Assembly (NCBI GenBank): GCA_016874735.1
Contig: VGTI01000018.1
Span: 1 to 64,000 of the forward strand
DNA from: Deltaproteobacteria bacterium
GTDB taxonomy: Bacteria > Bdellovibrionota_B > Oligoflexia > Oligoflexales > CAIYRB01
Reading direction: 5' to 3'
DNA length: 64,000 bases
The position numbers and the translations under genes are program-made. Numbering within the stretch: position 1 is the stretch's first letter; the number at the start of each line of letters is the position of its first letter. Of the stretch, positions 1 through 61,365 are shown one piece after another. The notes under the pieces were generated by a model, which ran no database searches, was not told the origin of the DNA, and saw only the letters and a program-made list of their open reading frames with translations.

Positions 1-3000
1 ATGCCGACGTTGCCGGTAGCCAACATCGTCATCACTGGTGTGGAACGAACACTGCCCGGAGTGTAGTAATCGACAGCGTCGGTGGTCCCCCAGTATGTCC
101 TAATTAAATTATTAGTGCCTCCCACCCAGTTGGTGTTGGGAGACACCCTTATCCCACTTCCGTATGGGAACGCTATATTTCCATTCACTTCCAGTTTGTC
201 TCCAGGGGACCCCGTCCCAATCCCGACGTTGCCGCCTGGTAAAATCGTAGCTGCTACAGAGCCACCGTTGAAAAATCGGAGATTATTGTCGTAATTATCA
301 ATACGCCAAGTTGTGGATCTAGTCCCACCTGGAAGCAAAGCTAACTCGCCTCCCTCTGCAGTGGCGTCCTGATTCCGCAGGTTAAGAGTACCGGTGCCTG
401 TGTACATTGACCCCGACACATCCAGGCTGCCGCTTGGCACAGTAGAACCGATCCCGACGTTGCCAGAGGTAGCAGCAATCGTAATGCCCTTTGCACCCGA
501 GCTCTGCAACTGCAATGCACCAGCATCGTTGCGCAGCGTACCAGTATTGGTGCCGCCGTCGGCTGACCGAGTTGAGGAGTTGAGGAACAGATTCATGTTA
601 GCTACAGTGTCGTTAGCAACGCGGAAAATTGTGTACGCACTGGCACCAGTATTGGCGTTGTTGACTTTGGCACCGACTTCGCCGTTAGTGTTGCCGTAGA
701 CATGCAACGAGTTACCCGGGGCATTAGTGCCAATCCCAATGCTACCTGCAGTATCCATCGATAAGTACGAGGGGCTAAAGGACGTATCGGTAGCAGTACC
801 ACCGCCGAAACCGAAGGTGTTAGAGTTAGGCAAGTAACCAAGTGAGACAACTCGGTTACCGTTGCGGATGAAGGCAGCCTGTTGCCCAGCGGTGGGAGCC
901 CTTGTGATTTGCAGAGCTTGCCCGTAGTTTGTCGGATCGTTCGTTCCATCTGTGGTAATAGATAATTTAGCTGCAGCTGAAGTCGAGCCGATCCCGACAT
1001 TGCCTGTGCTTCTAGCAATCGCAATACCCAGTTTCTCAGTGCCATTTTCGTTACCCGAGAGTCTGAGAGTATCGCTGACCTCGTCGTACTTAATTTTGGC
1101 TCCGTAACTACTGGAGGCCTCCTGGAATTCGATCCCTTTGTAACCTCCTGACGGCACAAAGAGAGACAGCAATTCAGTCGGTGCAGTTGTTCCAACCCCG
1201 ACGTTGCCGTTGGTATCAATTCGGACTCGACCAGTATTGTTAGTAAGTAGGTCAAGAGGGTGAGCTGTATAGGAACCAACAAAAAATGTGTTTGCATTAA
1301 CAGCGAGATCGCCGCCAACAGAGCCGTTGCGTAACCTGTACCGGGTGTCGGTGGTCCCGGAAGTCATTAGGTCAAGCTGAGTAGTTGGCGCCGTAGTCCC
1401 AATCCCGACGTTACCACCCGTCGTGATCCGCATCTTCTCAGTGTTACTTCCACCATTCACCCGGGTGTTAAACGCCAGGTCAAACCCGTAATCACCAGCG
1501 GTCGCATTGGTCTTGAATGCGTGGATCGTTGCCGCTTCGGTCGGTGTCGTACCGGTGTAGTTACCCATAAACTCGATACCACCACCAACACCGGCAGCCA
1601 TGGACGTGGTGTCTTGCACGGCTAGGCCTACAGAGTAAGGCGAGGTCTTGGAGTCTTTGACTGAGGCAATGTGAAGTTTTTCGCCAGGTGAGCCAGTGTT
1701 GATACCTAGGTTACCCGCAGCTGTGAAGGCAAATCTGTTAGTACCGCCACTTTCTAGCTTCATCAAATAAGACCCTGCATCTGTCGCCGCAGTCTTAACA
1801 AGTAGGCCGTTACGGTTAGTTGCCGTTGCATCTGTATTGGAAATACCGAGAGAGTATCCTGCCCCGTTTGTTGCCCAGGTCAGACCACCAATGGCATTCA
1901 CTGGCGAGCTTGCAGCATCGGACACTGCAGTGGATGTATTAGCAAGTAAGCTTGGCGTCGATGTCACACCAATACCGACGTTACCTGACGAGTAGCTCAA
2001 GGTGTTAGAACTGTTGGTCCACCCAGTGCTCCAAGTCAGCGTACCAGCGTTGTTGGTCAGTACAGCGTTAGTGCCAGCGTTGCTTGCGGGCCAGGTGTAG
2101 GTCTGGCCTTTGATAGCCTTGATGTCACCCGTAGAGTCGACCTGGAATTGGGACGTGGAGCCGACGCTGAACAACCTGGCTGGGGCGGTGGTGCCGATAC
2201 CGACGTTTCCATCTTTCGCCATATAGACTCTGGTGTCGTAGGTGCCATTGTTATCAAAATCATTCGAGAAACTTAGGCCGTAACCACCAGTGCCAAGACG
2301 CCACTCTGCCGTATCAATATCGCCGATCTCAACCGTCGTAGCACCGCTGGTGCTACCTAGCCTGACGCTGCCAGCCACGTCTAGTTTGTAGAGAGGATTG
2401 TTCGTCCCAATGCCTACGTTACCACCAGACTGCTGCATCACTACCGCACCAGTCGTACCACCCACTACCCCAGCACCACCGTTGAGGGTCAAGCTGCCGC
2501 CGTTAGCAAGTGTCGCACCAGTTGCGTTACCGCCGCGGACGGTCACGCTACCACCGTGCGTGCTGCTGCCACCCTCACCACCACGCACGGTGACTGCACC
2601 TGAAGTGCCGGTCGAGCTAGTACCGCCGGCGATGGTGACAGCACCACCAGTAGCAGCACCAGTGGCGCCTGCACCCTGGATAGTCAGAGCAGCACCAGCT
2701 GTGGATGCCGTAGTGCTGTCAGCTACCTTGATGGTGCGAGCCGACTCTTTTGACAGTGTGATGTCGCCATTAACTTCAAGCGCTGTCGATGGGTTGGTGG
2801 TACCGATACCGAATTTACCAGCCGACGTGAAGGTAAACCGATTGGTACCACCACTCTCCATTTTCAAGAGGTATGATCCTGCATCAGTAGCTGCGGTCTT
2901 AAGGAGCATACCGTTGCGGTTGGCGGCAGTGGCGTCGTTGTTGGCGATCGTGGCGGCATAATTGGCACCATTGACGGCCCAGGTCACACCGTTAGCATTG

Positions 3001-6000
3001 GCGCCAATCGAAGCGGCGTCGCTCACCGCGGTGCCAGTATTGGCTAGCAGTGAGTAGGGACTATTAGTCCCGATACCAACAGAGCCACCTTGGTAGATCA
3101 AGTTGCTACCCGAGCTTACCCACTGGTTAGACCAGCTGAGGCCCCCGCTGCCGTTATTGGTCAGTACGGTGTTAACACCACCAGCTGCGACCGGCCAGGT
3201 GTAGGTCACACCACGGACCTTAGCCAAGTCACCATTGGCATCTACTTGGAACTGTGCAGAACCCGTGCCGATACTAAGCAGCTGGCCTGGAGTTGTGGTG
3301 CCGATACCGACGTTACCTACAGTGCTTAGCTGTCCATCAACATGGAATCTCGTAAAGTAGCTGTTAGTACCACCACCGTATGCGCTCGGTTTACGAGCTG
3401 AACTTGCACCAGCGCTTTCAAGGTAGAGCACGTTGGTACCGGTTGGATCCAAGCGGAATTGAGGACCACCACTGCCGTAGCGGTGGAAGCCCAATGTCGG
3501 TGCTGAAGTAGTGACCGTGGCATTATTGTTCACGATCTCGATACTGTTTGTGGTGAACGCTGCGTTCATCCAGGAGTAGCCGGCTGCACCGGTGTTGCCG
3601 TAAGCTGCCCAGGACTGGCCCGCAAGATTACTTGTACCAATAAGGTCGAGTTTGTATCCGGGATTAGTCGTTCCGATACCGACGTTGCCGCTGGCACCAT
3701 CAATCGTCATCTTTGCGTTGGATGAGGATGGAGTCGCACCCGACGAGTTCGCTGTAAAATACATCTTATTGCTGCCGCCCAAATCAGCCGCAATGCCTAG
3801 CCTTTCTGAGGTGCAACACGCTTCCGTGAAATCCAAGTAAGTAATACCACCGGTTGCCGCCATCATCCGGATGTTTCCCGACGTACCGAGGTCTAGGCGC
3901 TCAGCTGGAGCCGTAGTCCCAATCCCCACGTTACCCGCCGCAGTAATGCGCATACGCTCGTTTCTCACGGCAGCGGCTGACGTCGTATCAAAGGCCAAGT
4001 AACCGGCTTCGGCCGATGTCGTTGCATTCTCGATACCACCGCCGATGAAGGCGTATTCTGTACGAGTGCCGGCAGCATTTTTCTGATCGAAGGTATACCC
4101 AGCCTCGTCCCCAACTGCCGCCGCGGTCGCACCTTTGCGTTTGAAGGCAGTGATGATACCAAACGTCCCTGCGCCTGTGGCATCTGAGATACCGGTGATA
4201 ATCCCGGCATTACCCGTAGTGGTCACAACTTCAAGAGCCCTAGCCGGTGTGGTCGTACCGATACCTAGGTTACCGTTACTATCGAGTACCATTTTAGCCA
4301 AAGAATCAGTATACCACTTGTAACCGCCATCCGAGTTGAACCACATGTTGCTAGGTTCAACACCAAGCGAGTAGTCAGATGCACCCACGGTACCAGAGGT
4401 ACCTGATAATTGGATGCGCTGACCGGTACTGTTGGTACCAGGTACTGCAGCAGTTACACCACCCATGAAGATATCTGCATTGGCGGCAAGTGCGATGTTG
4501 CCGTTGACGTCCAGTTTCTGCGACGGCGTTGCAGAGCCGATACCGACGTTACCGCTTTGGAACAAATTGACGTTAGAGCCTGAAGTAGTCCATGGCCAGG
4601 CACTGATACAGTTAGCGCTACCACCGAGACAGATGGATCCGTTGACGTCTAGTTTGCCGGCTGGGGCGGTGGAGCCGATACCGACGTTGCCGGCACTATC
4701 GATCATTAATCGCGTAAGGTTTGAGGTACCAAGTATCAGATTTGATGTATATTCATTAACGAGATTTAATTGATTTGAAGAATCTAGACCGACACGCCCC
4801 TGAACAACTGCACCGTCTTGAGAAAACCGCAAAGTTGGAACATCAGTTTCAGTCACATTATCGGTATCAGCTTCAAGAAGTAAGCTAACGCTTCCTGTAC
4901 CTGACACGTGAAGATTGGACGTAGGATTAGTCGTTCCAATCCCGATGTTACCACCCTGCTTAATGATCATGTCAGTGGTCCAAGTACTTGGATTAGTTAA
5001 ACCCGAGCTAGCATGCATAAATCGGATATCACGATCAGCGCCGTTGAATGCGTAGATGTACAGGTCATCATCGCCAGCCGTAGCGCTCATACCACCTGCA
5101 CCGATACCAAAGTTCGCGTCGTTCATGTAGATTCGACTGTGTTTTGTATAGGTCACATCGCCGAATGCACCGTCCAGGAACATAGACGCGTTACTAGAGC
5201 CCTCGGTACCTAGTTGCAGGTTGTAAGATGGGTTGGTGGTTCCAATTCCGACATTGCCACTCACTGCGAGTCCGTTAGCTGGACCTGCAGTTGCGGCTGA
5301 GTAGCCAATAGCAGCGTTACCATTAACCTGGAGTTTGGATCCTGGCGACGTTGTTCCGATCCCGACGTTGCCGCTTAACGTCGTCGTGCCCTGAACGTGG
5401 AACCCGTCCCACACAGCTAAACCGGTATTGCCGCTGCCATTGGGATCAAGTGTTGTCCAGCCAGCCGTCGCTGTACCAACTTTGTCACCGGCACTGAAGC
5501 GAAGCTCAGTGGTTCCGTCGGTGATTTTTGCGGTCGAGGCGCTGACACCACCCGTACCTTGGACATGCAACTTGGCAGTCGGGTTGTTGGTACCGATCCC
5601 GACATTGCCAGTGTTGTAGTAGATGTCGTTGGTGTTGACCGAAGTCCACTTGGACGACAGGTAGGTAGTCCAGCTTAGGTTACCGGAGCCGTCGTTCATC
5701 AGTAGCTGATTCGAGCTGCCCTGAGCAGATGGCCAGACGTAAGGAACGTTGTTTACTCTCGAAAGGTTACCTGTTGAGCTCACTTGGAATTGTGAGCTAG
5801 AACCGACAGCTAGCATGTTTGTGGGGTTAGTGTTGCCAATACCGACGTTGCCGCTGTTTAGAATTGTCAAACGATCATCGTAACCTGCCGTCGCATTACC
5901 GGTCGCGAATACAAGACTACCAGTGTTTGTACTTACTGCTTTTTCGTAGATGCGAGCACCGCGCTCGGATGTCGAGTGCAAGAAGCTGATGGCAGCACCA

Positions 6001-9000
6001 TCACCCGCGCTTGATACGCCTCCTGTACCTACTGCAAGGTTTAATGAAGCGGCTTGTGCACCTGTCGTGGAATTGACTTGAAGCGTCGATCCTGGCACCG
6101 TTGTCCCCACACCGACGTTACCACCCGTAAACGTCGCAGCGTAGTTTGTGGTACCACCACTGACGTTGACGTTTAGACCAGTGTTGATAGCGCCAGCACC
6201 GTTCCAAGTACCTGTGCTTTGAATGTTGACGCCGGTCTTGTTGATGGAGGCTGTGCTCGAGGTGTTGGAGATGTTGAATGACGCGCCAGTAACCGCGGTA
6301 GTTTCTGCAGTCGCTTCAGAGACTTGCAAGAGCGAGGTCGGACTCGTGGTACCGATACCAACGTTGCCGTCGCCATTGAGCACCATCTTGGAACTACCGC
6401 CGTAACGGAAGTCTAGGTACCTAGATGACACGCCGCCCGTCGTGAAGTCTACGTAAGGAGACGATGTAGACGCATCATATGCGACGTCTAAGTATCGACC
6501 GCTCAAAGTATTGTGCTCCAAGCGGAGTGTTGCGGGCGCACCGGTCACATGGAGTTTTGTCGTTGGCGCTGTAGTCCCAATCCCGACGTTTCCATCTTTC
6601 GCCATATAGACTCTGGTGTCGTAGGTGCCATTGTTATCAAAATCGTTCGAGAAACTTAGGCCGTAACCACCAGTGCCAAGACGCCACTCCGCCGTATCGA
6701 TATCGCCGATCTCAACCGTCGTAGCACCGCTGGTGCTACCTAGCCTGACGCTGCCAGCCACGTCTAGTTTGTAGAGGGGATTGTTCGTCCCAATGCCGAC
6801 GTTACCACCAGACTGCTGCATCACTATCGCACCGGTCGTGCCGCCTGCCACTCCAGCACCACCTCTGAGGGTCAGACTACCGCCGTTGGCAAGTGTCGCA
6901 CCAGTTGCGTCACCGCCGCGTACGGTCGCGCTACCACCGTGGGTGCTACTGCCGCCCTCACCACCGCGCACCAGGACCGCTCCGGAAGTCCCGGTATCGC
7001 TCGCACCAGCGGCGATGGTGACAGCACCACCAGTAGCAGCGCCAGTGGCGGCTGCACCCTGGATAGTCAGAGCGGCACCAGCAGTGGATGCTGTGGTGCT
7101 GTCAGCTACCTTGATGGTCCTAGCCGTCTCTTTCGACAGTGTAATGTCGCCGTTTACTTCTAGTGCCGTCGATGGGTTGGTGGTACCGATACCGAATTTA
7201 CCAGCCGACGTGAAGGTAAACCGATTGGTACCACCACTCTCCATTTTCAAGAGGTACGATCCTGCATCAGTAGCTGCGGTCTTTAGGAGCATACCGTTGC
7301 GATTGGTGGCAGTGGCATCATTGTTGGCGATGGTTGCAGCGTAGTTAGCACCATTAACAGCCCAGGTCAGACCGTTTGCATTGGCCCCAATCGAAACGGC
7401 GTCGCTCACTGCGGTGCCAGTGTTGGCGAGCAGTGAGTAGGGACTATTGGTCCCGATACCAACAGAGCCACCTTGATAAATCAAGTTGCTGCCAGAGGTT
7501 ACCCATTGTGAAGTCCAGCTGAGGCTGCCGCTGCCGTTGTTGGTTAACACAGTATTGGCAGCACCTGCGGCCACCGGCCAGGTGTAGGTCACACCACGGA
7601 CTTTGACCAAGTCACCGTTGGCATCAACCTGCAACTGGTTGGCACCGGTACCGATGCTCAGTAGCTGGCCAGGGGTGGAGGTACCGATACCGACGTTGCC
7701 GGTTTTAAACACAGCTGCGTAGTTATTTGTGGCACCCGTCTGAGCGTCGACAAACAAGCTGTAGCTGTTTGTCCCACCACCCAGAGCTGTCGAGCCGATG
7801 CCCAGGGCGACCGAGTTAGTGATGGTGTCGTTGGTGCCTTTTTTCGGTGAGCCAGCTAGGTACAGAGAGTAGCCGTTGGTGGTCGTGACTGTTGTGTTAG
7901 TAGACGCCAAGGTCGGGGCAGCAATAGCGTTAAAGGCCATGTTGGCTGCGGTACCCGATGCAGCCGTAGCGCTGTCAGTGAAGGTTGGACCTGCGAGGCC
8001 GATATAGGCACCGGTCAGACTTGGTGTACCAGACTTAGCACCGCTGACGTCGAAAAGGGAGCCAGGAGCGGTGGTGTTGATACCGACGTTGCCAGAGGTA
8101 TTGATCATCATTCGTGGTGTATTCAACGGCGACGAATAGACCAGCGGTCCAGTGGATTGGAATACCAATGGGCTCCCAGTTACGCCGTTCCAGGTCCCGT
8201 TGATTTGGCCGAAGTAACTATTCGCTCCTCCGTTAGTAAACAACTGAACAACTGCATTGCCACCTGCCAAAGTATTTTCGAAGCGAATCATATCGCCCGC
8301 AGTGCTAGTTGATACATGAAGCGGTAAAGCCGGTATCGTCGTTCCTATCCCGACGTTGCCGTTCGTCTTGACCGTTAATTGAGCGCCACCACTGTTTGTG
8401 TAGAGGCCGAAATCATGATTGCTCAAAGTGCCGATAAATCCTCCGCGAGCGGAGTCTGCCCATGTAGAAACAATAACTCCGTTGGCGGTCTGTCTGATCC
8501 CTGAGACATTGTTAGCAGTGGCAACGTCCAATAATGAAGCCGGCGTCGTCGTCCCAATCCCCACATTACCCGTCGGCGTGATCGCCATCACACTGGCCAT
8601 CGTATTTGCCGTGCTGCTGGTCGCAGTGGTAGGCGCGGTTTGGAATAAGATCGTACCAGAACCACCAGTACCAGTGCCGTTACCTGCAGTTACCGTCAGG
8701 TCTTTACCTTTTTTGTCGGTACCGGTGATATTGGCTGCCCGCACCGTACCACCCGTGGCACTCGCGGTGGCTTCGTTAGTGCCTGCGATCACTGTGGGTG
8801 TGATCAGGTTGGTAGCATTGATGCTGTTAAAGGTGGGCGATGCCGTCGTGCGGATGTCTTGTGCCGTGTCGAGCGACAGGGTACCAGCACCTAATGTGTA
8901 CGTAACACCTTGGTAGGTACCTTGACCCAGGGTAGCTGGTACGGGAGCTGCACCCGTCGATCCCACCAGCACCTGACCATTGGTCATCGCTGCCGTCGAG

Positions 9001-12000
9001 GTCGGTGCTCCACCGGCACCACCACCTAGGACGATACCGCGCTGGGTCAAGAGACCAGACGATAGCATCGTACTCGTTGAATTGAAGTAAGGCATACCAC
9101 CCGAGGTACCCGTGGTGAGGCCAGTACCACCGCTTACTACTGGCAGGGTGCCGGTCACGGCATTAGCTGTCTGCGACAAATCGATTGCGCCGAATGATGG
9201 AGCGCCACCAGCATTGGGCACTCGTAGCACTTGGGCGCTCGTACCAGCTACCGTGCTGTTGAGTGTGTTCGTGCCGTTACCAAGCATGACGCCGTTAGTA
9301 GTAAACGTGCCAGCACCGGTACCGCCGTTGGTTACTGCCAGTAAACCGTTCACGGCCGAGGTCGATGCCAAGTTAACCGCACCGAAGGTCGGCGTACCAC
9401 CAGCACCGGCTTGCAGCACTTGGTACTGCGTGCCTGCAGCAGTGACGCCGACGTTGCTCGTACCGTTACCGTAGGTGATACCGTTAGGAGTGATCGTCGT
9501 GAGACCTGTACCACCCTGACCCACTGGGACTGTGTTTAGTGTCATGGTGTTGCCACTGATACTCAGAGGCGCGTTAGCTACTAAGTTGGTGGTCGTGCTA
9601 GACGCAGTGAGGATACGTGAGTAAGCGCTACCGTTTTCTGACAGCATCATGCGGTTGCCAGTCGAGTCAAAGTAGATCTCACCCTGACCCGCAGGGCTCA
9701 CTGCTGGTGCCGTCACACCACGAGCGATGATGGCACCGTTCATGTCGATCAGAGCACCTGGGTTGGTGACACCGATACCGACGTTACCGTCGTTCATGAT
9801 GCGCATACGCTCTGCAGGTGGTGCGTTGTTAGCAGTCGATAATACCAACGCGCCTTTGTACGAAGCATCCGTGATGTCGGTGATGATACCGCCGACGCCT
9901 GCCACGTTAGTGAGGCCGGTGCCCGTACGGTTAGCTGCGTAGACCGTTTGCGCACCAGAGTTATTGGCTGCTGCGACAGTGTTTTGCATCCGTTCTACAA
10001 CTTGCAGACCTGCACCCGAGGTAGCAACGTCTAATTTATAGGTCGCTGTCGTCGTACCGAGGCCGATGTTGCCGGAGACTGCTAGACCGTTGCTTGGAGC
10101 AGCTGTCGATGTCGCGTAGCCGACCGCGGCGCCGCCGTTAACCTGCAGAGCAGATCCTGCTACGGTCGTCGCGATACCGACGTTGCCAGAGACCGCGAGA
10201 CCGTTGGTTGGTGCCACCGTTGATGCGCTGTAACCAACCGCTGCACCACCGTTAATTTGCAGTTTAGAGCCGGCCGTCGTCGTACCGATGGCCACGTTAC
10301 CAGAGACTGCCACACCGTCAGTGGGTGCCGTCGTTGCCGTTGCGTAACCAACCGCTGCACCACCGTTAATTTGCAGTTTTGATCCCGCATCAGTGGTACC
10401 AATGCCCACGTTGCCAGAGACGGCGAGTCCGTTGGCTGGACCAGTCGTAGCTGTCGCGTAACCGAGAGCGGTAGCACCATTGACTTGCAGTTTCGAGCCT
10501 GCACCCGTCGTGCCGATGCCGACGTTGCCCGACACTGCCAAGCCGTTAACTGGTGCAGTGGTCGCCGCCGCGTAACCAACCGCTGCACCACCGTTAACTT
10601 GCAGTTTCGATCCTGGTCCCGTCGTACCGATGCCGACGTTACCGTCGCCCAGGATGATCATCTTCACATCGGGCGTACCATCGGTGGAGCCCGAGGCACC
10701 GCTGGTCGCGGTCGAGAAAGTGATCGCTGACGATCCCGTACCGGTGGAGTAACCAGAGGCGAGGGCCAGCGTGCCACCATTTTGGTTAGACACACCGGAG
10801 GCTGCACCGCCAGCATTGATACTCAAGCTTGCGCCACCCGCACCGCTCGTATTGCGGTCCACTTGCAGGACGCGCGGACCGTTACCGCCGAAGCTCAAGT
10901 CAGCAGTCGGCGACGCTGTACCGATGCCTAGGTACAGGAGCGAGTTGATACCTTGGTTGTTGAAGTTGGAGGCAGCCGTGGCGATAAAGCTCGTCGCTCT
11001 CACCACCCCGTTAACATCGAGCTTGTAACCAGGTGAATTAGATCCGATGCCGACATTACCAGCGATGATCATGCCGTCGGCAGGCGCATTGTCGGTGCCG
11101 TAAGCTGAGCCAACCGATACACCGCCACCGACGCTCAGTTTCGATACTGGGCTGGAGATACCGATGCCGACGTTGCCAGCATTTTTGATCGTCATCGCTG
11201 CCTGTGGGCTAGCGGCAGCTCCCGTGCCACTTGTGTTTTGTGACGCGGTCTTAAAGCTGATGTCACCACTACTAAACTGAATCGTATTACCGTAGCCGTC
11301 GGCGCCGTAGCGGAATGCCGATCCGTTCCAGTATAAGTTGTCGCTAATCAACGTATTATTGTTTGCAACACCCTGGAGCATCATGCCGGCAGCTTCGATC
11401 GTCGGGTATGACGACGTGCCAGCTAGTTCCAGGGAGGCACTTGGTTGCGTCGATCCAACACCAACATTACCAGCGTTGGTGATCGTTACGCGTGTTGCCA
11501 GCGTTGCCTGAGTTGAGCCCGACAGCAGCGGTGAGGCGGTTTGGAAGCTGATGTCTCCCGAGCCACCAGTGCCCGTGCCTACACCGGCAGCGATGGTTAC
11601 GGTGCCGCCTTTTTTATCCAAAGTGCCGGTAGCTACGTTGGACGAGCGTAGCGTACCACCAGCAGCGCTGGCGCTATTGTCACCCGTACCGACCATAGTC
11701 GTGCCTGCATTGAGCAAGGCAAAAGTCGGGCTTGCTGAGGTTTTAAGATCCTGGGCTGTATCAAGGGTAATGGTGCCACTGGCATTAGTGACGACAACAC
11801 TGTTAGTGCTGCCCTGCGTCAAGGTACCCAGGGTATAACCCGTGCCGTTACCAATGAGGAGCTGTCCACTCGTGGGTAAAGATCCAAGTCCAGTACCGCC
11901 TCGCGTCACATCCAAAGTGCCGCTTGCTATGGCCGATGCCGGAAGTGGAGGAATATCGGCCACGTCGAGTGTCGTACCCATGTAGGCACGGCCTTTAGCG

Positions 12001-33000: not shown

Positions 33001-36000
33001 GACAAGGTCCCGTTACCCTCGACACTGATATCTCCCGCGATGTCTATAGCCGATGCCCTGACCCGACCGGTCGTATCAATGTTGGTTGCACCGGTAATCA
33101 GCGAGCCACCGGTGATCGTGCCGCCGGCAATGGTCGGCGCAGTGAGCGTTTTATTCGTGAAGGTTTCAAAACCCTCGAGAGTTGCCACTGTTCCCAACTG
33201 CGGGAACACAGCCGTTGATGCGACGCCAGTACCGCCGGCAGATGTCGGGAGAAGTCCACTGACGGCGCCAGACTGAGCGAGGTTAAGCGGACCAAAGCGA
33301 GGCGTGCCGCCGTCGCTGGGCACCGTCAAAACCTGATACGCCGATCCCGCACCAGTCGACAAGAGGTTAGCACCGCCGTTACCAATGATGACACCGTTGT
33401 TGGTAAAGCTGCTTGCCCCGGTACCACCATTGCTCACGTCAAAGACGCCGCTTGCGATAATCGAACTTGGTAGACGCGGAATATCAGCGGGCACCAAGCT
33501 AGTCGCCGTCGTCACTCGACCTTTGGCATCGACGGTGACTTTTGTATATTCACCCGCGGTCACGCCGGTGTTGACCAGAACAGGACTTGGATACTGACCA
33601 GACAAGTCACCACTGGCTACACCAGTCGGCGTGACGCCACTCACCCACTGAAGGATGCCCGTCCCGTCGCTGGTGAGAATTTGGCCCGGCGTGCCGGATG
33701 AATTTGGCAGCGTCAAAGTCAACGAAGTAGCAAGGTCGTCGGGTGCTTTGATAGAGACGGCGTTGGTGTTGAGGCGGTTGTTAAATACCACGCTGTTCGA
33801 TGTTACGGCGTTACCTTTAACGGTCACGTTACCGTCAATCGTCGCACTTCCCGACGCAAGCGTCCCCGTCGTGTTGATAACCGTCGCACCGCCAATGACG
33901 GAGTTGCCGGCGATGGTGCTGGTGCTGACCAAAGCTCCAGCCAGCGTTTTATTGGACAAGGTTTCGCGGGCATCACGCGTTACAATCGTGCCGGTGGTTG
34001 GGAATACGGCTTGCGATGCTGTGCCCGTACCACCAAGAGTGGTAGGGAGAATGCCAGTGACGGCCGCAGGCTGACTCAAATTGAGTGCACCAAAAGTTGG
34101 TGCGCCACCACCAGCTGGAACCACGACAGTTTGATAATCACTACCAGGGGCAGTCGAGAACAAATTGCCACTTTCGTTACCAAGAATGATACCGTTGCTC
34201 GTAAACCTTGTGGCGCCGGTACCGCCTTGAGATACATCGAGCGTGCCGCTACCGATGATGGATGCCGGCAGACTCGGGATGTCGGCTACAGTGAGGGCTG
34301 CACCGGCAGTGACACGACCTTTAGCGTCAACGGTTACAGTCTGATAATTGCCTGGTGCTACACCAGTGGTTGTGAGTTGGGGCGCAGGATAATTACCCGT
34401 TAAGTCGCCACTCGCACCACCGGTCGGTGTCGCACCCGATACCCAACCAAGGCGCCCTTGACCATCGCTCTTCAGGAGCTGATCCGAGCCGCCGACCGTC
34501 GCCGGTAGCGTGAACGTCACGGTGCCGCTTAAGGTATCGGGGGCTTTGAGTTCTACGGCATTGATGCTGTCTTTGTCTTGCAAAACAAGTTTATTCGCAT
34601 CAGCGCCATTACCAACAATCGTTACGTTGCCTGCAGCTCTGATCGCACCGCCACTGATAGGACCACTTGTGTCGATGACGGTGGCACCGGTCACGAGCGA
34701 TGCGCCACTGATCGTACCGGCGCTAACCATGGGACCAATAAGCGTCTTATCGGTCAGAGTGGCACGTCCGGCCTCAGTGACAACCACACCTGATGACGGG
34801 AATACCGCCGTCGACTCGATACCCGTACCGCCAAGTCCACGCGGCAATATGCCCGTCACTGCGGCCATTTGCGCTAGGTTGATGGCGCCAAAAGTAGGTG
34901 CCCCGCCACCACTCGGCACCACTAAACTTTGGAACGGACTGCCCGCTCCGGTTGACAGGAGATTGCCACTGTTGTTGCCAAGAATTACCCCGTTGTTGGT
35001 AAAGCTCGTAGCACCGGTACCACCGCGGCCCACACCGATCACACCCGATGTAATCACCGATGCAGGGAGCTCCGGAATATCGGCAACCTCGAGACTGCCG
35101 CCTGCAAGGACGCGCCCCTTGGTGTCGACATACATCTTCGTGTAGCTACCAGCACTTACACCAGTGGCGGTCAGCACTGGGTTGGGATACTGCCCGCCGA
35201 GATCACCGCCTGCCGTTCCCTTGGGAGTCGCACCGCTCACCCAGTTGAGCTGGCCCTGACCATTCGTCGTCAGCAGCTGACCGTTATCACCGTCCGTTGC
35301 AGGCAGCGTCCAGGTGACACTCCCACTTAAGGTGTCGGGTGCTTTGAAGGCGACATAGTTTTCCGTACCTTTATCGGTCAACACCAGACGCTTAGCATTG
35401 GTCAAATCACCACGGATCGTGACATCACCGTCAATCGTTGCCGCTGCGGATTTAATCGTACCGGTTGTGTCGATAACGGTGGCACCACCAATAAGGCCAG
35501 CGCCTGTCAGCGTGCCGGCACTAATCACTGGACTCGTCAAATTCTTGTTACTTAGGGTAGCGACGTTGCTATCCGTAATCACCAGACCGGACTGCGGATA
35601 AGTTGCCGTCGAAGTGATACCGGTACCACCGAGGCTAGTTGGCAAGAGACCCGTCACGGCAGCTGGCTGCGCCAGATTGATGGCCCCAAATGTAGGCGTC
35701 GTGCCATCGTGTGGGACGATGAGACTTTGGTACGGTCTACCTGCAGCGGTCGATAGGAGATTGCCGTCACCGTTGCCGATCATCACACCACCAGGTGCGA
35801 AACTTGTAGCTCCCGTACCGCCCTTACCTACATCGAGTATGCCCGAGGTGATCTTGGACATGGATAGGTTCGGGATGTCGTTCACCGCGATCGTGTCACC
35901 AGAGGTGACGCGGCCTTTGGCATCGACACCCACTTTAAAGTAAGTGCCCGGAGTGACACCGGTCGCTATCAGGGTCGGGTTCGGATAATTCCCCGTCAAA

Positions 36001-39000
36001 TCTCCACCGGCACTGCCAATAGGCGCAGCACCACTTACCCAAGTTAGCGCGCCGTTTCCGCTCGTGCTAAGTAGTTGACCGGTCGTGCCGGCGGCATTTG
36101 GTAAGGTCAAAGTCAACGTGCTCGTCATTTCGTCGGGCGCTTTGATCTCGTAGCCAAAAGTCGTCCCACGATCGTTGAGGACTAAACGATTAGCAGTTGC
36201 GCCGGCACCTTCGATCACGATGTTGCCGCGTGACGTGATGCGACTTCCAGCAATAGATTGCGCGGTGTCAATGACCGTGTTGCCCGAGATGGTCGTACTA
36301 CCGGCGATCGTCGCGTCGTTGATTGCGGGACTTTCCAGTGTCTTATTGCGAAGAGTCTCCGTGCCATCTGCCGTGACGATCACGCCAGATCCTGGGAACA
36401 CTGCCGTCGACTCGATACCCGTACCACCGAGACGTTTAGGTAAGATCCCGGTGACAGCCTCGGGTTGCGCCAGATCGACTGCACTGAAGACTGGTGCGCT
36501 GCCGTCTGCTGGGACCGTGAGGCTCTGGTAGCGCGAGCCTGCAGCGGTCACTTGCAGCGCACCGTTAGCATTACCGAGCATGACACCGTTGCTAGTAAAT
36601 GTAGAAGCTCCAGTACCACCATTGGTCACACTCAACGTGCCGTCGCTGATAATCGACGCCGGCAAGCTCGGGATATCGGCAACGACTAAGGACGTGCCGC
36701 TGACCACCCGACCTTTGGCATCAACGGTCACCTTGCTATATTGACCAGCAGTGACTCCCGTCGATGCAAGCGTTGGGTTCGGGTAATTGCCGACGAGATC
36801 ACCACCGGCCGTGCCCGACGGCGGTGCTGACGACATCCAGGTTAGCTGGCCGCTGCCGTTGGTACCCAGGAATTGACCGAGCGACCCATCACCGGCAGGT
36901 AAGGTGAAGGTCGTCGAACCTGCAAGGACGTCTGGTGCTTTGAGCGAGACCGCATTGACCGAGTCTCTGTCTGTAAACACCATTTTATTTGATGTTGCGG
37001 CGTTACCTTTAACCGTGATGTTGCCATTGGCGTTGATCGTAGTTGCCGAGACGCTGCCAGTAGTGCTGATGACGGTAGCTCCCGTGATCACCGAATTACC
37101 GGCCAAGGTACCAGTCGTAATCAGCGGGCTTGCCAGCGTTTTATTGGTCAATGTTTCCGATGCGTCTTGCGTGACGACGACACCAGCACTAGGGAAGGTC
37201 GCTACCGAACTGATCCCGATACCACCACGACTGGTCGGCAAGACTCCCGTCGTGGCAGCCGTTTGGCTAAGGTTAATTGCACCAAAAGTCGGAGCGCCAC
37301 CGGTGCTTGGCACTACTAAACTCTGGAACGCGACTCCCGGTGCCGTCGAGAACAGGTTGCCGCCATCGTTACCGAGGACGACACCATTGTTGGCAAAGCT
37401 TGTGGCACCCGTACCACCGACGCCTACGCCGAGGACGCCGCTACTGATTTGTGATGCAGGCAGTTGCGGTATGTCGCTGACCACGAGAGTGCTGCCCGCC
37501 AACACGCGGCCTTTAGCATCGACGGCAACTTTTTGATAGGTGCCCGCAGCAACACCAGTAAACGTTAGCTCAGGACGTGGATAAGAGCCTTGCAAATCGC
37601 CAGTTGCTGCACCTGCTGGAGCTGAGCCAGAAACCCAAGTTAAATTTCCGGCACCGTCTGTTGTGAGCAGCTGACCAATAGCTCCATCGGTGCGCGGCAG
37701 GGTGAAGGTGGTCGACCGCGTGAGGTCGTCCGGAGCTTTGATGGAGACGGCATAAGACGTACCGCGGTCATTAAGGACTAAACGATTCGCATAGGTCCCG
37801 TCACCCTGCACCGTGACGTTACCACTTAAGGTGGCTGACTGAGCCTTGATCCGACCCGCCGTATCAATCTCGGTCGCGCCGGTGATCAGTGACGCACCAG
37901 CGATCGTTGCGGTGTTAATCAGTGGTGCCGACAGAGTTTTGTTGCTTAGATTTGCGAGGCCTGCCTCGGTCACGACAACGCCACTTTGGGGGAACGTTGC
38001 CGTCGAGCTTACGCCCGTACCACCGGAGGTGGTCGGTAAAATCCCCGTGGTTGCGGCAGGCTGCGCTAAGTTCACGGCGCCAAACACCGGTGCTCCACCG
38101 CCCGCTGGCACGGTAAGGCTTTGGTACGCACCTCCTGCGGCAGTCGAGAAGAGGTTACCATCCTGGTTACCTACGATGACGCCGTTACTGCTGAAGCTCG
38201 AGGCACCCGTACCACCGAAACTCACAGGGAGACGTCCAGAACCAATGGCACTCGCTGGCAGGAGTGGAATGTCGCCGGCAGCAAGCTGCCCACCAGTAAA
38301 CACCCGACCTTTAGCGTCAACGGTTACCTTGGTGTAAACACCGGGTGTTACACCTGTCGCGGAAAGTGTTGGGCTAGGGTAGGAACCGACGAGATCTCCG
38401 CCTGCTGCACCTAGAACTTCGGCGCCACTCGTCCAGTTCAGAGCACCGTTGCCATCCGCAGTCAGCATCTGTCCGGCGCCACCGGCACTGGCAGGCAAGG
38501 TCAGAACGAAAGATCCGCTGAGGCTATCGGGAGCTTTCAGTGCAATGGCATTGATCGAGCCTTTGTCATTTAAAACCAATTTGTTGGCAGAAGTCGTATT
38601 GCCGCGGATCGTGATGTTCCCGTCAATGGTGGTGGCCCCGGCTGTGATCGTGCCTAGAGTGTCGATCACAGTGCTGCCGCCGATGACCGCTGATCCAATG
38701 ATCGAACCGCCGGCGATCACTGCGTTACTAAGCGTTTTGTTGGTTAATGTATCGCTCGTGCCACGGCCGACCAGCGTGTCGGTCGCAGTGGGAAGGAACA
38801 GCAGCCCACCACCGTTGGCAATACTGCTAATCGACGGGGCAATTAAGGTTTTGTTGCTGAGAGTCGTAACTCCGTCCTCAGTGACCACCACGCCCGAGGT
38901 TGGGAATGTTGCCACCGAATTGACACCAGTACCGCCCGCCGTCGTCGGTAATATCCCCGTCGTAGCTGCTCCTTGACTGAGATCGACGGCACCAAAGCGA

Positions 39001-42000
39001 GGTGCGCTTCCGTCACTTGGCATCACTAAGGTCTGGTAGGAGGAACCAGGTGCCACCGTCGCCAAACCACCACCGGTCGTACCAACCACAAGTCCACGGG
39101 CGGCGAACCCGGTGGTACCGGTACCACCGCGGGTGACGTCTATCACACCGGAGCCTATGGCCGATGCGGGTAGGCTTGGTATGTCGCTAGCCACCAGCTG
39201 TGATTTACCGACGACACGACCCTTAGTGTCGACTATGACTTTGGCATAAGTGCCCGCGGCCACTCCGGTAGGTGCCAGCTGAGCGTTAGGATAAGCACCC
39301 GTCAAGTCGCCACCGGCCGCACCGTACATGTTCTGGCCGGATACCCAGCTCAAGTTACCTAAGCCGTCGGTCTGCAGTAGTTCGCCTGGGCTGCCGTCCT
39401 GTGCTGGCAGCGTCCACACATAAGTTCCCGACAGGGTATCGGGGGCTTTGAGGGCGATGTAGTTACTCGTGCCTTTATCAGTCAAAACCAGTTTACTGGC
39501 CAAGTTGTTATTACCGAGAATTTTCACATCGCCAGACACTGTAGCCGCACCAGTTCTGAGGGTACCAGTCGTATCGATGGAGGTACTACCGGCAATCACT
39601 GAACTCCCCGTGATCGTACCAGTGGTAATCACCGGACTAGAAAGCGTTTTGTTTAGTAACGTATCAACAGTCTCACGACCGACGAGCGTGTCGTTTGTGG
39701 TCGGTAAAATCACCAAACCACCGTTATTGATGGCACTAATCGTCGGCATGGACAGCGTTTTATTAGTCAGTGTTTCTGCGGCGGTCCGCGTCACGACCGT
39801 GCCGCTGGTTGGGAATATGGCCGTCGAATTGACGCCGGTACCACCGAGAGCTGTGGGGAGTTGGCCTGTGAGTGCACCGTCGCTGGCGAGGTCCAAAGCC
39901 CCGAACGATGGCGCTCCACCACCACTCGGCACGCGCAGAATTTGATTAGAAGTTCCCGCAGCAGTTGAGAATAAATTACCGCCGCCGTTGCCAAGCATGA
40001 CGCCGTTAGTCGCAAAGCTCGACGCTCCCGTACCGCCGTTGAACACCGGTAATGTCCCGCTACCGATTTGGGAGGCCGGTAGCTTAGGAATGTCAGCAAC
40101 TGTTAACGTGGTCCCTGCAGTCACACGCCCCTTAGTGTCCACGGTGACTTTGGCGTAACTACCAGCGCTAACACCCGTAGATTTCAGAACGGGATTTGGG
40201 AAAACGCCCGTTAGATCGCCACCAACATTGCCACGTGGGATGGCGCCGCTCACCCAACTCAGGTTGCCGCTGGCATCAGTCTGCAGCAGCTGACCATCGG
40301 TGCCAAGTGTCCCAGGCATGGTGTAGGTGATCGATTCAAACATGGCATCGGGTGCTTTGATTGACACCGAGTAGGTTTGACCGCGATCGTTCAACATCAA
40401 CTTATTGGCAGTCGTATTGTTACCTTGAACCGCAATGTTTCCGTTAATGAAGGTCGGGCCCGCCGTGATCGTACCGACAGTGTTGATACTCGAGGCTCCG
40501 ACGATCACGCTGGACCCAGTAATGGTGCCATTAATCATAATCGGTGCACTCAGAGTTTTATTGCTGAGAGTCTCAACAGTTTCGCGACCAACTAGGGTGT
40601 CAGAGGTGGTGGGGAGCGTTAGTGTGCCACCGTTGACGAGCGTGCTAACCACCGGCTCGATCAGTGTTTTGTTTGTCAACGTATCAGCCGTGGCGCGTCC
40701 CACTAACTGATCGTTACCCTGAGGTAGGACGATCGTACCGTTATTAGAGATTGTACTGATCACAGGCTCTTGCAGCGTCTTATTGGTGAGCGTCTGATTT
40801 GCAGCCTCGGTAACGATCACACCGTCGGTCGGGAATATGGCGGTTGTGTTGATGCCTGTACCACCGAGGGCACGCGGCAAGATGCCAGTAACTGCTGCCG
40901 TTTCACCGAGATCAATCGCGCCGAACGAGGGCACACCCCCGTCGGCAGGAATTCGCAAAATTTGATTAGCGGCACCTGCTCCCGTTGAGAACAAGTTACC
41001 CGTGTCGTTACCGAGCACGACACCGTTGTTGGCGAAAGATGTGGTCCCCGTACCACCGCGTCCGACACCGATAACACCGCTTGTGATAGCCGACGCTGGA
41101 ATGGGAGGTAAGTCACCGAGCCCTATAGTGCCACCGCTTAAAACCCGCCCTTTGGCGTCGACTGCAACTTTGAAGTAAGTGCCAGGATCGACCCCGGTTG
41201 CTGCTAAAGATGGATTTGGATACACACCAGCCAAGTCGCCACCTGCGTCACCCGTGGGTGCAGCGCCAGATATCCAGGATAAGTTCCCTGCCCCATCGGT
41301 GCGCAGCAGTTGACCCGCAGTCCCCGCACCACCCGGCAATGTCAACACAGTCGTTCCACTGAGGTTGTCAGGAGCTTTAAGCACGACAGCATTCTCGGTG
41401 CCGCGATCGTTCATGACCAAAGAATTGGCCGATGTACCGTTACCACGGATCGTGACGTTACCAGTGACTGTGGTCGCACCTGCGTTAACGTTGCCAGCCG
41501 TATTGATCGTTGTGGTGCCATTAATGATGGAGCCGCCACTGACGATGGCACCGTTGATAATCGGATTTATCAGGGTTTTGTTTGTGAGCGTATCTGTGGT
41601 GCTACGGCCGACCAAGGTGTCCGTTGTGGTCGGTAACGTCAACGTTCCCGTGTTGTTGATCGTGCTGATGACCGGTTTCATCAGAGTTTTGTTGGTCAGA
41701 GTGTCCACGGTATCGCGACCAACCAAGGTATCTGTCGTGGTCGGCAGCGTTAAGGTGCCGGTGTTGGCGATCGTGCTAATCGTTGGCTCGACTAGGGTCT
41801 TATTGCTCAGTACAGCCGTGGCAGCCTCGGTGACGACCACGCCACTAGTTGGGAACTGAGCTGTAGAACTGACGCCGATACCACCGCGACTCGTTGAGAG
41901 CACGCCCGTCACTGCAGCACCTTGGCTTAAATCAATGGCACCAAACGTCGGCGCACCACCACCAGCGGGAACGCTCAATGTTTGGTAAGGCGCTCCAGCG

Positions 42001-45000
42001 TTCGTTGACACCAAGCCACCCGCGACACGCCCCAAAACGACACCGTTGTCGTTGAAGCTCGAGGCACCGGTACCACCGTTGACCACACCGAGCACACCAC
42101 TTGATATGACGGAGGCTGGAAGTGGCGGAATATCACCAACCACCAAAGTCGATCCGTTCGCGACACGCCCTTTGGCATCAACGGTTACTTTTTGGTACAC
42201 ACCGGGCGCGACGCCCGTGTTAGTCAGCTGCGGACTAGGATAGTTGCCGACGAGATCGCCACCTGCGGTGCCTGTAGGTGATGCACCGCTGACCCAGCGC
42301 CACGCTCCAGCGCCATCGGTAGTCAGCAGTTGTCCATCAGTCCCGTCACTTGCAGGGAGTGTGAAGGTCACGGAACCAGCAAGTGTGTCGGGAGCTTTCA
42401 GCGAGACGGCGTTAGTCCCAACCTTGTCGGTAAAGGTCAGGCGGCTCGCCGTATGGGTATCACCTTTCACCGTCAATTCGTTCGCTACAGTGATGCGACC
42501 CGTCGTATCAATCACGGTGGACCCAGTGATCAAACCAGAGCCGGTCATCGTGCCGCCTTGAATCATTGGCTGCGCGAGCGTCTTATTCGTTAATGTGTCG
42601 ACGGTCTTTAGACCAACCAGCGTGTCGGTCGTCGTTGGCAGGGCCAAAGTGCCCACGTTGGTGATGGTGCTGATCGTCGGATTGATGATGGTTTTGTTGG
42701 TCAACGTTTCCGATGCCGCGCGTGTGACGACCACACCATCAGTAGGGAATGTTGCTGTAGAAACTACACCCGTACCACCAAGTCTAGTTGGCAGCAGTCC
42801 TGTGACCGCGTCAGACTGGGACAGGTCTAAAGCTCCAAATTCTGGCGATCCCCCAGCTGCTGGAATGCGCAAGGTTTGGTAAGCAGTGCCAGGGGCTGTC
42901 GCATTGATACCACTCGTGCCATTACCGATCAGGACGCCGCCGGCCGTCAAACTTGCAACGCCGGTACCACCGCGTTCGACGCCAAGCGTCCCCTGGCCTA
43001 AAATCGACGTCGGTAGGCTGGGGATATCCGATACGCTCAGAGTCGTACCGTAGCTGACGCGCCCTTTGGCATCGACAGTCATTTTCTGATAAGTGCCAGG
43101 TGTGACGCCGGTCATGGTCAATTCGGGGTTCGGGTACATAGCCGTCAAATCACCCGACGCTGGTCCCGTCGGCGATGCACCAGAGCGCCAGCTCAAATTT
43201 CCAGCTCCATCGGTAAAGAGAAGCTGCCCGCTTGTGCCCACGCTATTGGGCAGCGTCAGGTTGACAGGCGACGCCAAATTATTTGGTGCTTTGAGCGATA
43301 CGTAGTTCGATGTGCCTTTGTCATTGAGGAAGATGCGATTAGCGCTAGTGCCATCTCCCTGCACTGTGATGCCGCCAGCGACCGTGGTCGCACCGCTACG
43401 AATCGTTCCCGTGATATCAATCACCGAGCTGCCAGTGATCAGGGAAGCGCCTGTGACTGTGCCTGATGTCATAGTCGTAGCGGTAAGATTTTTGTTAGCC
43501 AGTGTCTCGACAGCATCACGCGTTACCACCACACCTGCAGCAGGGAACACCGCTGTCGAGTTGACACCCGTACCACCGACACTCGTTGGCAATACGCCAC
43601 TGGTAATCTTGCTAGCTGAGAGCTCGGGGATATCCGCAGGTACCAATGTCGTACCGTAGATCACGCGCCCTTGCTGATCTGTCGTCATTTTCGTGTATTC
43701 ACCAGGCATACCGAGATTGGGGAGACTCACCATCGCGTTACCACCGATGGTGCTCACGACGACGCCGTTGCCGGCGGTGACGCTAGAGATCTTGTTGTTG
43801 AACGTGATCCAGTCGAGCACCGACAGATAACCAGACGAGACGGACGATGCCTGGCCCATCGAAATGTTGCCGGTCGTGTTGTTGTAGGTCACTGGAGCTG
43901 TCGCGGAGATCATTTTGCGCGCTGCTTGCTGCGCGCGGGCTTCGGTGAAGTAGAGGTTGGTAGTCTCAGTGACATCTGCCGTCGTCAAGGCGACGTCGCC
44001 AGTCTTACCAGCAACAGACGACACTGGCACCGTCGGGAAGTTGACCCAACCAAGCTTGCCCGAACCGTCGGTCTGCAGCACTTGACCGGTAAGTCCATCA
44101 CCAGATGGCAGCGTCCAAATTTTATTCGCCGCGATTTCATCTGGGGCTTTGAAGCCAACGTAGTTACTGCCCGTCAAGTTACCGAATCTGAGTTCACCAG
44201 TGGCACCAGCACCGGTGTCATACGGTTTCAAGAACACACCAGCCTGTTTCGATGTTTCCAGACTGCCGGGAGTAATGACTGAGTCTGCCGTGATGGCATC
44301 TTGTTTCGCGTTAAATTTGAGCCAATCTGAGGTCGTCAGGTAACCGTTACTGACACTGCTCGCCTGCGTCATGCTGAGCACTGGCGTCGTTCCCGCCATC
44401 GTCACTGCCAACGGTGCTTGCGCTGTCACGGTGGTGCTCGCTGGTATCCACTGGCTACCGTCGTAGCTGAGTACTTGTCCCACTTCAGGAGCGGTGGCAC
44501 TAACGTTGGTTCCCTGGAGGGCTCCCGCGCTTGCTGAAGGTGTTTTCCAAACAATTTTTCCCGAGCTGTCCTTCGTCATAAACTGGTTCGGTCCTGGCGC
44601 AGCATCGGGACCCACCGTTAGTTCCCCGTCAGAGCTAAACTTAATTGTTTTATCATCAACGGGGACGCGTGCAGCGTAAGGAACAGTGACAACTTGTTGC
44701 AGTGGATACGGTGACCCACCGTGCGTGAGATCTGTCACTTGGAACCACACGCGCTGCCCGACATCTGGAAACACGCGATGATAATCTTCTGGGCTGAGCG
44801 TCACGCGTACTTGAAAGATGCCGTCTTGTAGGACGATTTTTTCAAAGCCATCGCGCACCGTAATAATTGGTGCACTCGCGTCGCCATCATGGAAGAACGA
44901 GATATCAAGTGCAACTGGTCCTTCGACAGGACGTCCACTCGGATCAGTTAACCGACCACTGACGACGAAATCGTAACTCGTATCGGCGGACGCGATACTC

Positions 45001-45155
45001 ACGTGAAACGACGCAGCAAGTGCCACCATCGCAGATAAACTATTTTTACTCAATTGAGGCGACGACAGAATAAGTGCACGCAAAATTTGCGCAAAGCGAT
45101 ACCGGTGCGCTGCTGCGCGCACTGACTTGGTCGCTTTGTTCAATTCTCGCATCAT
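1..45155 (-). CDS. Giant secreted repeat protein (GNVGIGTT / VDAKGR type), C-terminus beyond left edge
   Basis: One frame without a stop runs from ATG 45155 to the left edge: at least 15,051 residues, very roughly 1.4 MDa. The frame at both ends and at every repeat motif is the same (codon low positions divisible by 3), so there is no net frameshift. Residues 1-57 look like a signal peptide with a long basic N-region, a hydrophobic core and an ASA cleavage site. Residues about 60-165 match the N-terminal domain typical of tail-fibre-like surface proteins ([11 protein letters not shown] ... DGIFQVRV ... VPYAARV). A transition follows, then about 40 units of about 266 residues with motifs GDLxGNYPNP, [11 protein letters not shown], SVGGTG, LTNKT and NYVSLKAP, and finally about forty GNVGIGTT modules. 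I saw no Cys in the first 500 residues. Family knowledge suggests an extracellular beta-rich fibre or adhesin, often ending in an S74 endosialidase-chaperone domain; that end is not visible. A second ATG at 45152 is possible. Function is inferred only. Confidence 0.93.
2201..3315 (-). repeat. Copy A of a 1.1 kb internal duplication
   Basis: This segment matches 6584-7698 at a constant offset of 4383 bp (1461 codons) with no insertions or deletions that I can find. The first 180 bases differ at only about four positions. Both ends fall at a GNVGIGTT motif. Confidence 0.88.
6584..7698 (-). repeat. Copy B of the 1.1 kb internal duplication
   Basis: Near-identical partner of 2201-3315, 1461 codons earlier in the protein. 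Divergence rises towards the 7.5 kb end. It includes an unusual run of short TVRGG/S- and A/G-rich repeats at 6870-7080. The similarity is far above that between other modules, so the duplication is recent or has been homogenised. Confidence 0.88.
10071..10640 (-). repeat. Five tandem 114-bp (38-residue) units
   Basis: Motif positions 10071, 10185, 10299, 10413, 10527 and 10641 are each exactly 114 bp apart. One unit reads [19 protein letters not shown] then [20 protein letters not shown] single isolated copy of the same unit sits near 5250-5370. Confidence 0.92.
11900..43720 (-). repeat. About 40 tandem units of about 266 codons in the giant gene
   Basis: The VDAKGR-type motif recurs about 40 times, near 43663, 43060, 42166, 41145, 40126, 39217, 38307, 37506 and so on to 12778 and 11989. 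From 38.3 kb down to 12 kb the spacing is nearly constant at 792-806 bp. Each unit reads GDLxGNYPNP, KVTVDxKGRVT, ADIPxLPAS, GTLxVxxGGTG, NGVxLGNG, a glycine-rich VPAGGG stretch, a second LPTSVGGTG, FPxSGVVVT, TLTNKT, a threonine/glycine-rich beta-like stretch, NYVSLKAP and LPxxxGxxGQLLxTDGSG. Neighbouring units use different synonymous codons for the same motif, so the array is old and kept at the protein level. Boundaries are approximate. Confidence 0.9.
38690..42720 (-). repeat. 37-codon mini-repeats inserted in five consecutive large units
   Basis: The motif [11 protein letters not shown], often followed by [11 protein letters not shown], occurs near 42616, 41722, 41611, 40702, 40591, 39685 and 38771. 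Where two copies sit in one unit (41.6-41.7 kb and 40.6-40.7 kb) they are exactly 111 bp apart. The insertions explain why these five units measure about 900-1020 bp instead of about 798. They lie near the N-terminal end of the array only. Confidence 0.8.
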
Positions 45156-47373: not shown

Positions 47374-48242
47374 AGCAACCAAGCTTGCTACGTCAGCTAC
47401 TATACTGCGCGCCCTTCTTGATGGCGACACACGCGCCCCTAGCCGCAGCAGAGGACTATGGCCAACAGCAGACGAGTGGCGGCAGTGAATCTGCTACCCC
47501 CGATCCACTAAACTGGTTGGCGCGCATGAATTTCCCAGCCTCCAGTCCACTGGTACGACGCGTTATTACATTGAAAGCCCTACCCTCCGACCGTGGCGAG
47601 CTACAGGTATCGCCCGTTGATCGGACGATGCTACAGAGTCTCCATTTTCTGGACGTTGCCAGCCTTGAAGACATTAGCTGGACCGACGTGATCAACAGGC
47701 GACACGCCTGGGCAGGGCGCGGGGTGACGCGCCGCCTAAAGGCCCTACTACAAGCTACGGGATCTCAGGCTATTTTGATCATCCCCCCACCCGGCAGCAG
47801 TGAGGCGATGGCATTGATTCGCCCAGACACTAACGGCCAACTGGACACGGTCGCACAGAAGTTGGAACGCCTACCTAAAGCAGAAGACGCGAAAGACGTG
47901 GCTGTAGCTCTCCGAGAAATGCTCGGCTACGATGCCATTGTGCTTTCCCACGAGGGTCCCTACGTCCTTTTGCAAACACCAGATCTCAATGCTGGGGCCA
48001 AGCTGCTTCACGGCGTAGCCATAGGCAACTCAGCGACCAGAGCATCGGTAAACAGAGAGACCGGCGTACCTACTGCGTTCCTGCGGCTTAGCCGCTCCCT
48101 CGGTCACTACTCCGTGTGGCGCATCGTCTCGGCGACCACTCCCAGCCTGATCCCAGCTGGCACTAAGGTGCTACTGGAGTCACGAGCTAGGCCTGAACGT
48201 TCCCCACGCCAGCCTTCGCCACCAGTGGTCGCGCCCCAGTGA
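47367..48242 (+). CDS. Exported protein of unknown function
   Basis: 291 residues. ATG 47367 overlaps the preceding stop (ATGGTGA), and GGAGG lies about 13 bases upstream inside that gene, so translation is probably coupled. The N-terminus has the form of a signal peptide (LLRQLLYCAPFLMATHAPLAAA, cleavage near residue 28). The mature part contains LQATGSQAILIIPPPGS at about residue 130 and a hydrophilic proline/arginine-rich C-terminal tail. No catalytic motif or known domain is recognised. Coupling to the beta-domain protein suggests that the two act together, perhaps as a periplasmic partner. It converges on the 48262 gene with only 19 bases between the ends. Confidence 0.78.
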   Translation: MVKQPSLLRQLLYCAPFLMATHAPLAAAEDYGQQQTSGGSESATPDPLNWLARMNFPASSPLVRRVITLKALPSDRGELQVSPVDRTMLQSLHFLDVASLEDISWTDVINRRHAWAGRGVTRRLKALLQATGSQAILIIPPPGSSEAMALIRPDTNGQLDTVAQKLERLPKAEDAKDVAVALREMLGYDAIVLSHEGPYVLLQTPDLNAGAKLLHGVAIGNSATRASVNRETGVPTAFLRLSRSLGHYSVWRIVSATTPSLIPAGTKVLLESRARPERSPRQPSPPVVAPQ

Positions 48243-48261
48243 GCTGGTGTGAGTCATTTGC

Positions 48262-49497: not shown

Positions 49498-49506
49498 GAC
49501 CACCGA

Positions 49507-51334: not shown

Positions 51335-51339
51335 GACCA

Positions 51340-51346
51340 CCTCCTC
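51340..51346 (-). promoter_or_regulatory. Strong ribosome binding site of the transposase
   Basis: Minus-strand GAGGAGG, 5 bases before GTG 51334; it sets that start rather than the in-frame GTG at 51340. Confidence 0.65.
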
Positions 51347-57929: not shown

Positions 57930-57960
57930 GGCACCTAATCGTATTTACGGTGCCTTTTTT
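57930..57960 (+). terminator. Plus-strand intrinsic terminator without a plus-strand gene
   Basis: GGCACC (57930-57935) pairs with GGTGCC (57949-57954), with further TAA/TTA pairing inside, followed directly by six T (57955-57960). The U-tract orientation is for plus-strand transcription. On the minus strand, where both neighbouring genes run, the hairpin is followed by GCAGCC, so it would work poorly there. The T run overlaps the gspN stop codon. Confidence 0.6.
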
Positions 57961-58903: not shown

Positions 58904-58965
58904 AGGACTCCCTACCCTCTCTTGAGACACCGTCACAGCGTCTTAACTTGTAACGATTGACTGGT

Positions 58966-59622: not shown

Positions 59623-59648
59623 GAACTCTCCGTCATCCTCACTACGAC

Positions 59649-61322: not shown

Positions 61323-61365
61323 CCGAGACTATCTCCTAGAGTTTCTCATATGTTAGATCTTCTCA

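Follow-up and report, generated by a model that had tools for sequence, protein, structure and literature searches.

A giant bacterial gene of at least 15,051 codons, with a 39-unit array kept in number and order, predicted to encode a MAT-like surface fibre

The giant gene and its surroundings

The window analysed here is a stretch of 64,000 nucleotides (G000:C18:1-64000) of contig C18, which measures 69,235 bp and belongs to a 4.65-Mb draft assembly of an uncultured freshwater bacterium (166 contigs, 96.8% complete). Most of it is occupied by a single minus-strand open reading frame, with neither a stop codon nor an N from 45293 to window position 3 (15,097 codons), 15,051 of these stop-free codons being counted from the ATG at 45155. 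By base composition alone, the probability of so long an open run is about 10^-244. Base 1 of the window is also the end of the contig, so that the 3' end of the gene is missing from the assembly and the true length of its product is at least 15,051 residues. The start at 45155 is supported by a GAGG-type ribosome site about 10 nt upstream, and by a relative (G004) which keeps the start, the leader and the upstream DNA of the gene. The leader resembles a signal peptide and ends in ...SIASA/D, the putative cleavage site being placed by alignment. These results are in line with a previous sequence-only reading, which had described an uninterrupted frame of more than 45 kb opening at 45155 with a ribosome binding site and a signal peptide, and running without a stop to the end of the window. 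That reading fairly placed the gene among the largest coding sequences of bacteria, though it is no record, since a frame of 39,678 aa has been reported in Omnitrophota (PMC10066038).

The visible protein, which contains four cysteines only, can be divided into a leader, an N-domain, a linker, a long array and a distal region rich in GNVGIGTT motifs (Table 1). The array was previously put at about 40 large units and is made of exactly 39: the first five measure 298, 340, 340, 303 and 304 aa, and the others 263-269 aa, with about 266 aa as the typical length. The distal region spans at least 3,760 visible residues. Its modules, also estimated at about 40, number 39 when GNVGIG-type motifs are counted with a loose pattern and 29 with a stricter one, while a capping-loop motif (V-G-x...P-x-x-x-L) is present in 27-28 copies, every one of them after residue 11,230. 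The sole recent-looking long repeat of the gene is a duplication inside this region. Neither Pfam nor NCBIfam had a match for the pieces of the giant protein that were scanned, and an Rfam search of the window was likewise negative.

Table 1. Features of the giant gene and of its divergent neighbour (window positions).
Feature	Position	Strand	Remarks
Giant CDS	3..45155	-	15,051 visible codons, 3' end cut by contig end
Leader, residues 1-57, predicted signal peptide with a long extension at the N-terminus	44985..45155	-	from sequence; start region conserved in G004
Conserved beta-rich N-domain, residues ~58-170 (~110 aa)	44646..44984	-	common to ~54 matches in the genome; AF2 core pLDDT 60-80
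Linker with partial units, from the N-domain to the array, residues ~171-666	43158..44645	-	
Array of 39 contiguous units, residues 667-11289	11289..43157	-	phage tail-fibre-like
Units 1-5 (long units)	38403..43157	-	length pattern common to paralogue C20 and orthologues
GNVGIGTT / capping-loop region, residues 11290-15051+	3..11288	-	related in sequence to phage tail fibres and to the tips of Bdellovibrio MAT fibres
Internal duplication, copy 1	6594..7739	-	86% DNA identity between copies
Internal duplication, copy 2	2211..3356	-	4,383 nt further along the gene
Divergent neighbour, 663 aa	45382..47370	+	C-terminus resembles an outer-membrane barrel; synteny with the giant kept in G004 and G002

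At 45382-49503, three genes without annotation (663, 291 and 413 aa) diverge from the giant gene. This block is syntenic with it in two relatives (G004 and G002) and is also found in a third (G003:C53), there without a fibre gene; the 663-aa neighbour is a possible partner of the giant gene. Further away, positions 50429-51340 hold a transposase-like gene of 304 aa, recognised by eye and with no Pfam match; contig C12 has another copy, with 61% identity. At 57959-63443, some 12 kb upstream of the giant gene, are genes for type II secretion (gspN, M, L, K and J), with a GspN of the Leptospira type and a PilM-like GspL. Cell genes near the giant gene include those of type II secretion, PhoU and a lytic transglycosylase, and phage structural genes were not recognised next to it.

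Conservation of the gene and of its array

A gene which stops at the contig edge of a 166-contig draft may raise the suspicion of an assembly artefact, with units wrongly joined or duplicated, or of a decaying, non-working pseudogene, and misassembly can indeed befall repetitive genes. Here, however, the 39 units share a mean DNA identity of only about 48% with each other and 62% at most (ungapped comparison), and the longest exact repeat within the gene is 89 bp, which leaves the units too dissimilar for mis-joining and makes it unlikely that the assembly collapsed or expanded the array. Moreover, the same genome encodes a paralogue on contig C20 that is complete within its contig (12,490 codons, with a stop) and a third large paralogue on C34, also complete, of about 4,690 residues. 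Orthologues are present in relatives from separate lake metagenomes (G004, G002 and G005), in three orthology groups: C18 with G002:C188 and G004:C250, C20 with G005:C24 and G002:C240, and C34 with G005:C69 and G002:C3. Between close orthologues of the gene family, dN/dS was 0.072 in the C20 group (G002:C240 versus G005:C24, 3,065 codons) and 0.086 in the C34 group (G002:C3 versus G005:C69, 1,585 codons); between G004:C250 and C18, dN was 0.125, with synonymous sites near saturation. Such values indicate strong purifying selection on the gene family, in accordance with the earlier proposal that selection holds the frame open, and argue against decay. The repeat-array artefact, which the same reading had named as a possible refutation, is disfavoured by low unit identity, by the complete C20 paralogue and by the orthologues in independent MAGs, where unit number, order and length pattern recur. 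The giant gene is real, and we hold the artefact or pseudogene explanation to be extremely improbable.

Unit number and order were indeed conserved between gene copies. The C18 and C20 paralogues have exactly 39 units each, with the same pattern of unit lengths, while their units are only about 55-60% identical. When these units were paired by index, the mean score was 277 bits versus 220 bits after shuffling, and the shuffles did not exceed 240 bits in 20,000 permutations. Index pairing so far above the shuffles is most simply explained by the descent of both genes from a gene that already possessed all 39 units. Orthologous units also match by index, in 32 of 32 cases between C20 and G005:C24, a gene which stops at a contig edge after 32 units, and in 14 of 14 between C34 and G005:C69. 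On G005:C106, another contig of the same relative, units best matching C20 units 36, 37, 38 and 39 occur in this order, ahead of a GNVGIG region and a tip. This contig may most simply be taken as the 3' end of G005:C24, though its distances to C18 and C20 are about equal, and three of its four units also match C18 by index. What appears to be new is an array fixed in unit number and order across gene copies and species, with tips that are not always kept. This frozen array suggests selection on the length of the shaft or on position-specific units.

The family is large. At E <= 1e-10, an N-domain profile found 54 matches in this genome, 54 in G002 and 42 in G005, and the domain was present in 11 of the 43 genomes of the order. 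The fibre-like frames examined total about 269 kb, or about 5.8% of the genome. Tips were compared in 49 frames whose C-terminus is closed, most of which belong to this genome; they form 34 clusters, a few single-member tips possibly being frameshifted ends. One cluster corresponds to S74 with SDxxxK motifs; the paralogues carry five S74 tips, seen in the smaller ones, and many other tips. C20 ends in a non-S74 tip that differs from the tip on G005:C106, whereas C34 and G005:C69 have their tip in common. Two loci of the family show adjoining frames: on G000:C12 (12963-19058), a short S74 frame comes after two fibre frames that overlap in different reading frames, an arrangement which looks like a broken fibre gene, and on G002:C185 (1249-5433), adjacent fibre frames of 438 and 956 aa are separated by an in-frame stop.

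Regarding the tip of the giant protein itself, no SDxxxK motif was found in its last 1,000 visible residues, and the C-terminal S74 (endosialidase chaperone) domain for which the sequence-only reading had suggested a test is not present in the window. A search of contig-end DNA overlaps for the 3' continuation of the gene found none. Since the contig stops at base 1, the present assembly offers no extension, and the first 200 bases of the window have no second copy in the genome. Synteny did not lead to the 3' flank either: the upstream block in G003 has no adjoining fibre gene, and its flanking genes in that relative sit on C46 here. The best candidate for the 3' end, out of several fragments without a start, is C107, a contig-end fragment of 907 aa which is open at its start, carries S74 and shows 62% identity over 205 aa.

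Relationship to known fibres and giant proteins

Sequence comparisons with solved structures linked the two repetitive regions to fibres. The GNVGIG region matched Bd2133 of Bdellovibrio (8ond, E 3.3e-7) and two other fibre chains of the same Bdellovibrio family (8ojn/8onb/8onc, with 2.5e-5 for 8ojn, and 8oml, 1.1e-4); beyond these MAT fibres, it had no significant match in the PDB. The unit profile matched the fibre of cyanophage P-SCSP1u (8i4m, 9e-9) over unit positions 147-260 and the tail fibre protein 6cl5 (5e-4) over positions 34-59. Tail-fibre families of PHROG match both the units and the GNVGIG region, and parts of the unit, chiefly the initial ~60 residues, recur on at least 176 viral contigs. 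The unit has no Pfam model, and the N-domain has no match in the PDB. AlphaFold was run on single chains, for the N-domain as well as for two units. Confidence was low in these models, with pLDDT values of 62 and 50, and Foldseek returned nothing significant.

The mosaic adhesive trimer (MAT) superfamily was defined in Bdellovibrio bacteriovorus, whose MATs are typically about 1,000 aa long and number 21 per genome; one of them, Bd3182, has 922 aa and was modelled as about 550 Å long (Caulton et al., 2024, PMC10769870). The giant protein is similar to MATs in its capping loops, which have detectable sequence similarity to solved MAT tips, and in the conserved base and variable ends of its family, with S74 and non-S74 tips within one genome; its signal-peptide-like leader and the conserved beta-rich domain that follows (about 110 aa) may be the counterparts of the leader and N-domain of MATs (about 130 aa). 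It differs from them by its size of at least 15,051 aa, by a shaft with a fixed number of 39 units, and by about 54 N-domain matches per genome. Two defining features of MATs, a fibre sequence related to solved MAT fibres and the capping-loop motif, were both found, and we class the giant protein as a variant of the MAT type, not as a proven member. Tail fibres of the phage or pyocin type (P-SCSP1u gp28, 8i4m; 6cl5; PHROG families) share sequence matches with parts of the unit and with the GNVGIG region, but the giant protein is cellular, predicted to be secreted, far longer and equipped with its own N-domain. The giant frames of Omnitrophota (PMC10066038) and the giant surface proteins Giant1-5 of Apilactobacillus kunkeei (PMC12863079) are likewise very large and predicted to be extracellular, several per genome, with a proposed role in cell contact, but their domain content is unlike that of the giant protein. 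Omnitrophota frames were moreover described as poorly conserved (PMC10066038), whereas unit number and order are kept here across paralogues and species.

Proposed function and alternatives

The extracellular role, as a fibre or adhesin, put forward by the sequence-only reading is supported by the leader and by the sequence matches to fibre families. With a probability of roughly 0.7, the product is a secreted, surface-displayed trimeric fibre that would work like the Bdellovibrio MAT fibres, about 15 times longer, and carry an adhesive tip. From a mechanistic point of view, the chain would be exported via a Sec signal and the base of the fibre would be held at the cell surface by the conserved N-domain. 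The 39 phage-tail-fibre-like units may intertwine in a long trimeric shaft, the GNVGIGTT region may form a distal beta-helix, and the unseen C-terminal tip would bind a target, for instance a glycan or another cell. The trimeric fold is proposed by analogy with MAT fibres; the single-chain models and Foldseek were uninformative. At the rise per residue of Bd3182, and given the same trimeric geometry, the visible chain would perhaps reach about 0.9 µm, and the 39-unit array about 0.63 µm.

The phage-like nature of units and GNVGIG modules, and the presence of unit modules on viral contigs, may also evoke the capture of a prophage or tailocin tail-fibre gene whose product still serves in a phage-like particle. 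A particle of this kind would go with phage structural genes alongside and no Sec signal; a signal-peptide-like leader was found instead, next to cell genes and with none of the former recognised. Synteny kept in relatives and a family of about 54 N-domain matches also speak against this origin, which we regard as highly improbable. A less remote alternative is a long extracellular matrix or attachment fibre, built from phage-fibre parts and serving adhesion to surfaces, biofilm or sister cells, with no recognition of prey or host. The sequence indeed indicates a secreted fibre without naming its target, and tips so diverse could bind any surface. However, the nearest solved relatives are fibres with which a predator handles its prey (PMC10769870), and the tips, by their number and variety, fit the recognition of many targets; this alternative is considered rather unlikely.

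Under the preferred reading, a surface-displayed adhesive fibre, the frozen array invites a further, tentative proposal, to which we give less than even odds. The shaft may act as a length standard, a trimeric fibre of about 0.6-0.9 µm in which the tip is exchanged but the 39 position-specific units stay the same in number and order, thereby holding swappable adhesins at a fixed distance from the surface.

Reports on giant bacterial genes usually present them as poorly understood and little conserved; this one can be divided into units. Its orthologues and paralogues reveal what selection keeps, namely the frame, the unit number, the unit order and the base, and not always the tip. MAT-like adhesion, detailed so far in Bdellovibrio with proteins of about 1,000 residues, would thus be extended to fibres that may match a cell in length, in a lineage which devotes about 6% of its genome to fibre-like proteins. 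Fibre length, as a selected trait, becomes directly testable.
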